A stretch of DNA of 64,000 nt from Candidatus Saccharimonadota bacterium (lineage in GTDB: Bacteria > Patescibacteriota > Saccharimonadia > Saccharimonadales > Saccharimonadaceae), in contig JAFWSN010000002.1 in the NCBI GenBank assembly GCA_017519305.1, positions 62,001 to 126,000 of the forward strand, in the 5' to 3' direction. The notes beneath the pieces were generated by a model, which had not been told where the DNA came from, searched no databases, and saw only the letters and a program-made list of their open reading frames with translations. A program made the position numbers and the translations under genes. Positions 7,648-29,670 of this stretch are shown here, piece by piece; positions within the stretch are counted from its first letter, which is position 1; every line of letters begins with the position of its first letter.

Positions 7648-9291
7648 TTACATTTTTTGCAAGGTTTGGAGCTCTTTAAGTACCTCTTTATATTCGTCAC
7701 TTTCGTCGTCTAATTTTTCCAATTTTTCTGCCAGTTCAGCGCGGCGTACAGCCTTCATTTCGGCATTATAACGTTTCAAAAGTTCTTTGGCCTCTTTTTC
7801 AAGCGCCGTCACTGTCATGTCGCTCTCACCCACCCCTTCGTGATCGTGCGAAAATACCAACTCTAATTCCGCTAGGCGGCCTTCGTCTTCCGGCACTTCG
7901 CAAGGAATATTAATCGTTACGCCACCATACACCTTGAGCGCCAATAAGCTGTCTTCGAGACCTTTCAATTTCTCACTCTTCTGCTCGGTTTTCGCCGATT
8001 TATAGAATTTCCTGCCGCCAGACTCCAGCTTCTCTGCCAAACGATCACCCTTCTTACGCAAATCTTCCACGCTTACGCCCAGCTTCTCGGCCACAGTCTT
8101 CTCATACCCGGCTCGTTCCACCTCGTCCGTAATTTTACTAAGTAATTTCAGAGCTATATCCGAATATTTACGTCTACCGGCTCCGCTACTAAGATCCAGA
8201 CTCTCTTCGTATTTTTTCAAAAGCCAATCCGTTGCTGGAATTTTCTTATTCACGGCCGTCTGCCACAAAGCTGGGTCTTTCTGAATTAGCTCATCCGGGT
8301 CTTTTGCGCCGTGATAATCCGAGATAATCGAAAGATCAAGGCCTAAATCACCCGCCATTTCAATCGCACGCTCCGCTGCTTTCACACCGGCCGCGTCACC
8401 ATCATAGGCTAAGCGAATATCGGAAGTTAAGTTCGACAAAATCTTGAGATGTTGGTCAGTCATTGCTGTCCCCGAAGTCGCCACCGCTGTTTTCACGCCA
8501 GCCTGATGCGACGAAATCACGTCCATGTTTCCTTCCACAATCACCACATAACCTTCGCGACGAATTGCTTCCTTTGCCTGGGCAAGACCAAAGATAAAAC
8601 GGCTCTTATTAAAAAGCAAAGTATCCGACGTGTTCAAATATTTTGGCTCACTTTTATCTAGTACGCGCGCCGTAAAGCCAATTACATTTCCAACGTTGTC
8701 AATGAACGGCACCATCATACGGCCACGGAACATATCCTTGTCATACTGGTTTAGAAGCCCTGCTGTTCTGAGCTCCGCCACTGAAAAACCACGCTTCATT
8801 AAAACTTGCTTCAAAGCCGTACCGGTTTCTGGTGAATAACCAATCTTAAATTCTTCCACCGTCCTGCGATTCAAATTGCGACGATAAAACACATAGTCAC
8901 AAACCTTGCGGCTTTTCATCATGCAAGCTTGATAATATTTGGTTGCAAGCGCCAAAGCCTCACGCGCGCGAGCTTTTCGCTTTGAAACTTCCGCATCACC
9001 ACCCTGATAACGTGACAAATCCACGCCGGCCTGCGCCGCCAACTTTTCAATCGCCTCACGGAAAGTAATCCCCTCAACCTCCATCACAAAAGTAAAAATG
9101 TCACCGCCTTTGTTGGCCGAAAAATCGTGCCAAATTCCCTTTTCCGGTGACACCATAAACGAAGGAGTCTTATCGACACCCCAAGGCGAACGCCCTTTTA
9201 ATGATCTTCCTGCGCGCTTCAACTCTATATATTGCCCAACCACATCTTCAACGGGAAGGCGCGCTTTTATCTCCTCCTTCGCATCGTTCAT
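7648..9291 (-). CDS. dnaG: DNA primase DnaG, zinc ligands absent
   Basis: Makes RNA primers at the replication fork. The TOPRIM core is intact, with EGNMD at 253-257 and DGD at 297-299. The N-terminal CHC2-like domain is recognisable ([21 protein letters not shown]), but the four positions that carry Cys, His, Cys and Cys in bacterial DnaG read Ser35, Gly38, Asp56 and Ala59. The fold is therefore kept without its zinc site. At 547 residues it is slightly shorter than the usual 580-600, and the C-terminal helicase-interaction region is charged and helical. The start at 9291 lies 6 nt from a TGA-TATACT box. Confidence 0.95.
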
Positions 9292-19238: not shown

Positions 19239-20045
19239 TTATTTTAGCATAAGTTGTTTAAAAATTAGCCCATTTAGCACCTTGGCAAATACCAAAACTA
19301 TCACAAAAGCCATCACCAAAAACGGCCCAAAATAAATCTTTTGATTTTTCTTTTTTCTCACCGTTGGATACATAATAATTAAGCCTAGGCAGTTTGATAA
19401 ACATAGCACAATCAAAGCCAACCATGCTTCACTAAGCGAAAGTGCAATAATAAGCCCCAAAACCCAATCGCCACTACCAACCCATTTCCCGCGCGACACG
19501 AGATAAAGCACCAAATAAATTCCACCAAGAATCGCCACAGCCCCCAAAAGATTCCAAAGCATCGGTAGCGAAAATCCATAAAGCCAAATCTTACACCCCG
19601 CCACGCCGGCCGCCAAAACTAAAGCAATCACCAACATAAAGCTTGGTAATTCCCCCCACATTCCATCATAGATTGCCAAAAATCCCAACGCTGTCACTAG
19701 CAATAAATCTAGTACAAAAATCATTTTTCCCAGCAAAGTCATCTCGAACGGATTCAAGGCCAAGGCAACACCCAGAAAAGCCAGGCCCATCAAGAGCTCT
19801 GCCAAAATTTCCATCATGCCAATTTTCTTCTTACAATAACGACACTTGCCACCAAGCAAAATCCAAGAGAAGATCGGGATATTATCATACCATTTCAACT
19901 GTTTGTTACAGCTAAGGCACACTGAACGTTGGCCAAGTTTTTTCCCGCCAACATCCTTATAATGTAGCCGCCAAGCCTGGCAAGCCAGGAACGAACCCAT
20001 CACGGTTCCTAGCACAAACATCCCTATAAAAAACCCGATTTCCAT
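19239..20045 (-). CDS. pilD: Prepilin peptidase / N-methyltransferase
   Basis: A polytopic inner-membrane aspartyl protease that removes prepilin leaders and methylates the new N-terminus. The cytoplasmic loop carries two CxxC pairs (CLSCNKQ and CRYCKKK). The catalytic aspartates are probably in AIYDGMWGELPS and GSGDWVLG. The length of 268 residues is normal. It would process the major pilin at 20132 and the minor pilin next to it. The start lies 6 nt from a TGG-TAATAT box. Confidence 0.92.
   Translation of the reverse strand: MEIGFFIGMFVLGTVMGSFLACQAWRLHYKDVGGKKLGQRSVCLSCNKQLKWYDNIPIFSWILLGGKCRYCKKKIGMMEILAELLMGLAFLGVALALNPFEMTLLGKMIFVLDLLLVTALGFLAIYDGMWGELPSFMLVIALVLAAGVAGCKIWLYGFSLPMLWNLLGAVAILGGIYLVLYLVSRGKWVGSGDWVLGLIIALSLSEAWLALIVLCLSNCLGLIIMYPTVRKKKNQKIYFGPFLVMAFVIVLVFAKVLNGLIFKQLMLK
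19241..19249 (-). promoter_or_regulatory. Leaderless promoter of the minor pilin gene
   Basis: TGC-TAAAAT (hexamer 19241-19246) overlaps the pilD stop codon and lies 6 nt from the ATG at 19234. Confidence 0.5.
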
Positions 20046-23097: not shown

Positions 23098-24873
23098 TTA
23101 TGCCAAATCGGACGACACGCGGTTTACCTCCTCCATTGTTGTTATTCCAGACAAGGCTTTAAGCATGCCGTCTTGTCTCATCGTTACGGTTCCCTTCTCC
23201 TTCGCGACGCGCATAATTTCTTGTGCTGTCGCACGCGAAGTCAAAAGTTTTTGAATATCTTCATCTACTGTAATCGCTTCATAAATGCCAGTGCGGCCAT
23301 GATAACCGCCCGGAGTCTCTTTAGTCGAAATACCACGTACTAATGAGTAGCCGTTTGTATTCTTCACTGGCAAGCCAGCATAACCGAGATCATTGCTGAC
23401 ACTAATCACCGACCCACTATTACTCGGCAATAGGTCGCCTAGTACCGTGTTAAGCTCTTCTGTTTCAAGTTGAGACGAACGATAAACCTCGCGTTTATCC
23501 GTTACTTTACGCACCAAGCGCTGGCCAATCACCGTGTTAAGCGTCGAGGCGAGCAAGAATGGTTCAATGCCCATATCAAGCATACGTGGCAAAATACCGG
23601 CTGCAGAGTTAGTGTGTAACGTCGAGAATACCAAGTGGCCAGTTAGTGCTGCTTGCACTGCTAGCGATGCGGTTTCTGGATCACGAATCTCACCCACCAT
23701 TACCACGTCTGGATCCTGACGCAAAATTGAACGTAGACCCGAAGCGAATGTCAAACCAGCATCCACATTAACTTGCATCTGGTTGATGCCATCCATCTTA
23801 TATTCAACTGGATCCTCAAGCGTCACAATATTTACCGCTTCACTCTTAATATCCTGCAACAAAGCATAAAGCGTAGTAGATTTACCAGAACCAGTTGGGC
23901 CAGAAGTTAGAATCATACCATTTGGTTTAGAAACGCCAGACCTGACCGCCTTTAATGCACGTCCCACCATGCCCATTTTATCGACCACCATCGCTGAACT
24001 AGACTTATCAAGCAAACGAATCACCACTTGTTCGCCCCAGGTCACTGGCGCCACGGCAATACGAAGGTCAATCTCCTTATCGTTTACTAATACCGTAAAC
24101 TCACCGTCTTGCGGCACACGATGCTCATCAATCTTAAGATCGGATAAGATTTTAATCCTTGATACCAAAGCTGGGGCTACTGATTTCGGCAACTCCATCA
24201 CGCGACGCAACACGCCGTCAATGCGATAACGAATAATTAAGCTATCTTCGAGTGGCTCAATATGGATGTCCGAAGCATTCGAAAGCGTAGCGTGATTCAA
24301 AATATTAGTCAAAGCTTTCGAGATTGGCGAATCTTGTATAATAGTTTTAACTCTACTGTTGCTACGTTTTAGTGCGTTCTCCTCATCAGTTGCGCGCACT
24401 GCCTCATCAACAGACTCAAAGTCACCCTTATATTGAGCCAAAACTTCTTTAATACCTTCTTCGGAAGACATAACAGCGCGTATCGGCCTATTGGCCATAC
24501 TTGCCAAATAATCAATCGCCTGAACATCGGTAACATCAAGCATAGCCACCACGAGCACATCATCGCGTACGCCTAGTGGCACCGCCATCACACGCATCAA
24601 AACGTCTTGTGGCAAAAGCAGCAAAGTATCCTGATCAAGACGCACGCCCTTAAGATTTACATAAGGAACGCCAATCACTACCGCCGTAGCATGAGCAATC
24701 ATTTCATCGTTAACGGCATTTTCTTCAAGCAAAGCCTCGAGCAATTGCTTCTCGTGCTTTGGGTCATTATCAACTTTTTCTTTAACTTTATTTACAACAT
24801 CAACATCAACAAGGCCTTCGCCGATCAAAAGCTCGACGACCTTTTCCTGTGCGGCCTTAGCTAATGTTGCCAT
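23098..24873 (-). CDS. pilB: Pilus extension ATPase PilB
   Basis: A 591-residue GspE/PilB ATPase with an N-terminal GSPII_E domain, Walker A GPTGSGKST, LEDPVEY, DVVMVGEIRDPET and GHLVFSTLHTNSA. The tetracysteine zinc motif usual in PilB/GspE between the His-box and the C-terminus is absent; the segment around VTDKREVYRSS contains no cysteines. Its GGAG site lies inside the end of the preceding small gene, so translation is probably coupled. Confidence 0.94.
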   Translation of the reverse strand: MATLAKAAQEKVVELLIGEGLVDVDVVNKVKEKVDNDPKHEKQLLEALLEENAVNDEMIAHATAVVIGVPYVNLKGVRLDQDTLLLLPQDVLMRVMAVPLGVRDDVLVVAMLDVTDVQAIDYLASMANRPIRAVMSSEEGIKEVLAQYKGDFESVDEAVRATDEENALKRSNSRVKTIIQDSPISKALTNILNHATLSNASDIHIEPLEDSLIIRYRIDGVLRRVMELPKSVAPALVSRIKILSDLKIDEHRVPQDGEFTVLVNDKEIDLRIAVAPVTWGEQVVIRLLDKSSSAMVVDKMGMVGRALKAVRSGVSKPNGMILTSGPTGSGKSTTLYALLQDIKSEAVNIVTLEDPVEYKMDGINQMQVNVDAGLTFASGLRSILRQDPDVVMVGEIRDPETASLAVQAALTGHLVFSTLHTNSAAGILPRMLDMGIEPFLLASTLNTVIGQRLVRKVTDKREVYRSSQLETEELNTVLGDLLPSNSGSVISVSNDLGYAGLPVKNTNGYSLVRGISTKETPGGYHGRTGIYEAITVDEDIQKLLTSRATAQEIMRVAKEKGTVTMRQDGMLKALSGITTMEEVNRVSSDLA

Positions 24874-29472: not shown

Positions 29473-29670
29473 TTAATTATTAGAAACAAATGGTAACAAT
29501 GCTAGGTGGCGAGCACGCTTTACAGCGACTGCAAGCTGGCGTTGTTGTTTAGCCGAAAGACCAGTCTTTGAGATTGGTTCAATACGACCATAAACATCGA
29601 TATAACGTTGCAAAGTTTTTACATCGCGATAATCGAAATATAGATCTGGATCATTTTTAATCCTTCTCAT
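29473..29670 (-). CDS. rpsR: Ribosomal protein bS18
   Basis: A 65-residue protein that pairs with bS6 on the 30S platform. [19 protein letters not shown] and [21 protein letters not shown] are diagnostic. There are no cysteines, so it is the zinc-free form. AAGGAG lies upstream of the ATG. It is third in rpsF-ssb-rpsR, the conserved bacterial order. Confidence 0.96.

Follow-up and report, generated by a model that had tools for sequence, protein, structure and literature searches.

Loss of the four zinc ligands from the DnaG primase of a Saccharimonadales bacterium and its relatives

In DNA primases that bind zinc, a Cys, a His and two further Cys residues (CHCC) occupy the four ligand positions, and the zinc normally holds the DNA-reading domain together. 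A structural zinc site can be replaced without loss of function, as in the C-minus ribosomal proteins, in most cases paralogues that are turned on when zinc is scarce. Among primases the closest described system is bacterial DnaG (TIGR01391; 1d0q, 2au3), and the zinc-bearing DnaG of Aquifex (2au3), which served as the reference in our alignment, reads CPFHPDDTPSF...FKCFGCGVGGD across the metal site. Metazoan Twinkle, a mitochondrial helicase of the same superfamily and a relative of T7 gp4, has also lost its zinc cysteines, together with its primase activity (PMC3610141). The primase of T7 no longer recognizes its template once the zinc motif is lost (reviewed in PMC6163395).

We analyzed a stretch of 64,000 nucleotides, referred to here as the window, from a genome of the order Saccharimonadales (contig JAFWSN010000002.1). 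It contains a primase gene whose product resembles bacterial DnaG in domain order, in the TOPRIM and catalytic residues, in the motifs around the metal site and in the predicted fold of the ribbon, but that differs from it at all four ligand positions. The gene and its domains are as follows.

7648 to 9291, minus strand: dnaG, DNA primase of 547 amino acids, with TIGR01391, PF01807, PF08275, Toprim and DnaB_bind matches in the usual domain order
9007 to 9291, minus strand: CHC2-type N-terminal ribbon domain without zinc ligands, residues 1-95 (PF01807, and match of the model to 1d0q_A)
8572 to 8934, minus strand: N-terminal domain of the catalytic core, residues 120-240 (PF08275, 100.9 bits; R209, K217)
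8284 to 8547, minus strand: TOPRIM domain, residues 249-336 (PF13155, 72.3 bits; E253, D297, D299, D331, D333)
8065 to 8229, minus strand: DnaB-helicase binding segment, residues 355-409 (PF10410, 43 bits)

The protein is clearly a DnaG; it scores 358 bits against the curated family model TIGR01391 (cut-off 283.6) over residues 5-404 and 81.7 bits against PF01807 (cut-off 24.9) over residues 6-94. In a whole-genome profile search of the assembly, which is 97% complete, the window DnaG was the one match to PF01807, and no further, zinc-bearing DnaG was found in this way. In contrast to the C-minus ribosomal proteins, then, the zinc-free DnaG is the only copy in its genome. It is a variant form of DnaG and not a new kind of enzyme.

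Where the CHC2 zinc finger has its CHCC signature, the window DnaG carries Ser, Gly, Asp and Ala, at these positions.

9187 to 9189, minus strand: Ser35, in place of the first zinc cysteine (translation and alignment with 2au3)
9178 to 9180, minus strand: Gly38, in place of the zinc histidine (translation and alignment with 2au3)
9124 to 9126, minus strand: Asp56, in place of the third zinc ligand, a cysteine (translation and alignment with 2au3)
9115 to 9117, minus strand: Ala59, in place of the fourth zinc ligand, a cysteine (translation and alignment; most relatives have Ser)

These are exactly the four replacements that the initial annotation of this DNA had proposed. It had also raised the prospect of a displaced site formed by other cysteines or histidines. 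Because residues 1-120 hold no Cys and a single His (H55), such a site inside the ribbon domain can be ruled out.

The initial annotation had suggested a structure prediction of residues 1-100. A structure predicted with AlphaFold for the full-length protein had a mean pLDDT of 82.8 (78-90 over residues 1-80) and, with support from Foldseek, matched the zinc domain of Bacillus stearothermophilus DnaG (1d0q_A) with a Z of 16.5 and an rmsd of 1.5 Å over 96 residues; the match to the catalytic domain of B. subtilis DnaG had a Z of 35.7. The ribbon domain modeled alone was of low confidence (pLDDT 60) and was left out of the argument. Note that AlphaFold models contain no metals and follow the fold of the family, and that the alignment included one CHCC homologue; the predicted retention of the zinc-domain fold is weak evidence, and indicates only that the sequence was read as that same fold.

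Evolutionary rates were obtained from 18 near relatives, in which dS was near saturation, so that dN alone was compared. The ribbon (codons 33-64) was the slowest part of DnaG, with a median dN of 0.076, as against 0.121 for the whole N-terminal domain and 0.251 for the catalytic domain. This low dN argues that the ribbon domain is under strong constraint, which fits a domain that is still in use. Moreover, E253, D297, D299, D331, R209 and K217 were invariant in 151 zinc-free rows of the alignment and D333 was kept in 149, and the motif TPSF.VSP.K.IWHDFS..KGGD was shared between families, in line with the earlier statement that the TOPRIM residues and the surrounding motifs are kept. (The C-terminus, at 7648 to 8050 on the minus strand, lies past the DnaB-binding segment and has no Pfam match there; it evolves very fast, with a median dN of 0.667.)

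The ligand positions were read in 146 genomes from the phylum of the window, as well as in named relatives and phages, with families designated by the labels f17, f64 and so on. Among genomes without a PF01807 match, in which a DnaG devoid of the ribbon was sought, most yielded fragments or no DnaG match. Every genome read in the genus, family and order of the window lacked the ligands. Of the 59 genomes examined in the order, all 59 have other residues there; S-[STNG]-D-S is the prevailing pattern, and S-G-D-A that of the genus to which the window belongs. (Two records named Candidatus Nomurabacteria have a DnaG that falls inside this order; their names are probably wrong.) Among the 29 genomes from elsewhere in the class, 16 lacked the ligands (families f17, f19, f21, f23 and f27) and 13 had CHCC (f18, f20, f22, f24, f25 and f26). 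Elsewhere in the phylum, CHCC was present in 53 of 58 genomes, and the other five belonged to f64 (SRDA, SRDS), f35 (SRDS, SKCT) and f51 (STCT); because these 58 genomes were taken from the two ends of the score range, as the best and the worst matches, no frequency can be read from 5 of 58. Primases of the Flavobacterium phages laban6-1 and FPSV-D35, which lie on a different branch, show the same kind of replacement (SVDS and STDS, within SPFVEEKSPSF...IWKDFSSGKGG), and that of a Cellulophaga phage reads SVCS. The DnaG of cellular Flavobacteriia presumably has a similar motif, with which the phage sequences fit.

Across these sequences the replacements follow a narrow pattern. Where all four ligands are replaced, Ser35 and Asp56 are always present and position 59 is Ser, Thr or Ala; in the relatives read, the third ligand cysteine, whenever lost, is constantly Asp. 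At the histidine position, Lys or Arg occurs in f17, f21, f64 and f35. Cysteines are otherwise scarce: residues 4-95 contain none in 137 of 148 zinc-free rows and one in each of the other 11. Some primases are replaced in part, with SHDA and SHDT keeping the His and STCT, SKCT, SVCS and SSCS keeping the third Cys; these states look like steps from a zinc-bound to a zinc-free form.

Trees were built from the catalytic domain alone, so that the ligand trait could not influence them, and in these trees zinc-free and CHCC forms were interleaved. In particular, CHCC and zinc-free members of f35 grouped together, and in the reduced Patescibacteria set a common origin for all zinc-free forms was rejected (p-AU 3e-69), which rules out a single origin of these forms and makes it firm that there was more than one loss in Patescibacteria. 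We do not claim an exact count. One loss within Saccharimonadia was not rejected (p-AU 0.33), although the best tree, which has five changes of state, puts two CHCC groups between zinc-free ones, and one origin for Saccharimonadia together with f64 was not rejected either (p-AU 0.11). Because a change from Cys to Asp takes two base changes, the repeated appearance of Asp56 is more striking than that of Ser35. Recurrent loss with the same replacement residues would be an uncommon example of protein evolution that can be predicted.

Other proteins that commonly come up in connection with zinc were read in the same genome. RpoC (contig C10, about 163678-164832) has GPTKDINPHDSKLKGVRSREAAVDKEGNLVTKS at the zinc ribbon, with all four cysteines gone. 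All 12 members of the order whose RpoC was read lack the cysteines of this N-terminal ribbon, and all 17 other Patescibacteria read keep them; among those 17, nine have a DnaG that has lost its ligands fully or partly. The first cysteine of a second RpoC zinc site (DCGD) was lost in 11 of 11 members of the order, the stretch that was read covering this first cysteine only. The loss of zinc from RpoC looks like a single event and so does not lend itself to statistics. The window's own genome gave no match to ZnuA, to the RecR zinc finger or to the Top1 zinc ribbon, and the DnaJ zinc domain had no match above the cut-off there, the weak match being UvrA. That UvrA keeps its CPTC/CQTC and CENC/CPAC pairs. 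Three further genes in the window bear on the question.

29473 to 29670, minus strand: bS18, no cysteine (sequence read)
23098 to 24873, minus strand: PilB-type ATPase (T2SSE and MshEN domains), no cysteine (sequence read)
19239 to 20045, minus strand: PilD-type prepilin peptidase, keeping its CLSC...CRYC pairs (PF06750, 85.2 bits)

The initial annotation had described bS18 as lacking cysteines and PilB as lacking its tetracysteine motif, and neither protein contains any Cys. Note that cysteine-free forms of bS18 are common, and are thus weak evidence for a loss of zinc. Since UvrA and PilD retain their cysteine pairs, the loss of zinc sites in this genome is selective.

We put at roughly 70% the probability that the window protein is a replicative primase whose ribbon domain keeps its fold and its job without zinc, with polar side chains in zinc's place. 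Small polar residues (Ser35, Asp56 and Ser or Ala at 59) would have taken over the zinc site, and where the histidine stood, Ser, Thr, Asn, Gly, Lys or Arg occurs. Judging from this pattern of residues, the two loops of the ribbon are probably joined by hydrogen bonds between polar residues or, in some families, by a salt bridge, since a Lys or Arg at position 38 could pair with Asp56 (f17, f21, f64 and f35). Against such a replacement, Gly38 and Ala59 of the window protein can form no side-chain hydrogen bonds, which leaves Ser35 and Asp56. Template reading probably persists in zinc-free DnaG, after which the primer would pass to the catalytic domain as in ordinary DnaG. That no metal is bound, that hydrogen bonds stand in for it and that priming is unaltered are inferences. 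The changed priming mechanism suggested earlier finds no support here; the model has the fold of the domain with zinc, which points to the same job done without the metal. A literature search, most subscription journals being outside its scope, returned no report that Saccharibacteria, Patescibacteria or Flavobacterium have a DnaG or an RpoC free of zinc, and neither a metal analysis nor a solved structure of a zinc-free member came to light. Primases that lack zinc in nature but keep their catalytic residues would offer a direct test of the role of zinc, as features that are unchanged in its absence are not due to the metal.

Were the ribbon to have given up template reading altogether, the choice of primer start would be relaxed and possibly guided by the helicase or by SSB, and the precedents of T7 primase and of Twinkle, in which loss of the zinc motif or of the cysteines goes together with loss of template recognition or of primase activity, speak for such a change. 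However, no part of the protein is more conserved than the ribbon, and its motif is kept across families, unlike a domain released from its job, and Twinkle has lost its catalytic motifs and priming as well, whereas those motifs are intact in zinc-free DnaG; we consider this reading unlikely. The constancy with which Asp takes the place of the third cysteine might instead reflect a metal other than zinc (Mg, Ca or Mn), bound by Asp56 together with the hydroxyls of serines, or zinc held between two molecules. A single carboxylate, the lack of Cys and the Ala at the fourth position of the window DnaG argue against this, as does the Lys or Arg at the histidine position of the four families named above, which would disfavor a nearby cation, and we regard a substitute metal as quite improbable. 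The chance that the gene is a pseudogene or an assembly error, or that a second, zinc-bearing primase lies elsewhere in the genome, is negligible as far as a 97% complete assembly can tell, and nothing was found in favor of any of these: the reading frame is open, 59 genomes are alike, PF01807 has its one match, each catalytic residue is present in 149-151 of 151 zinc-free rows and the ribbon is the slowest-evolving part. A pseudogene, in agreement with the initial annotation, and an assembly error are ruled out.

A different kind of explanation, compatible with a ribbon that keeps its job without zinc, concerns the cause of the loss. Under long-term zinc limitation the order would have rid its abundant machines, among them DnaG, of structural zinc; the initial annotation had likewise offered a lineage adapted to low zinc. 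The order-wide loss of the RpoC ribbon cysteines, set against none of 17 outside the order, the lack of matches to ZnuA and to a Top1 zinc ribbon and the cysteine-free bS18 and PilB lend this idea support. Against it, UvrA and PilD have their cysteine pairs, and members of f17, f19, f21, f23, f27, f35, f51 and f64 have lost DnaG ligands while retaining the zinc of RpoC. Because of these two observations zinc shortage alone is insufficient, and we hold it to be a possible explanation with somewhat less than an even chance, although zinc saving is reasonable as the cause in this order. Evenly balanced, in our estimation, is the broader proposal that the whole order does without structural zinc in primase and in RpoC (both at the ribbon and at the second site), and that the loss from DnaG follows a repeatable route, taken stepwise in unrelated lineages and in phages, in which the first and fourth Cys become small residues and the third becomes Asp. 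That RNA polymerase shares the loss points to selection acting on the use of zinc in these bacteria, which are small and probably host-dependent.
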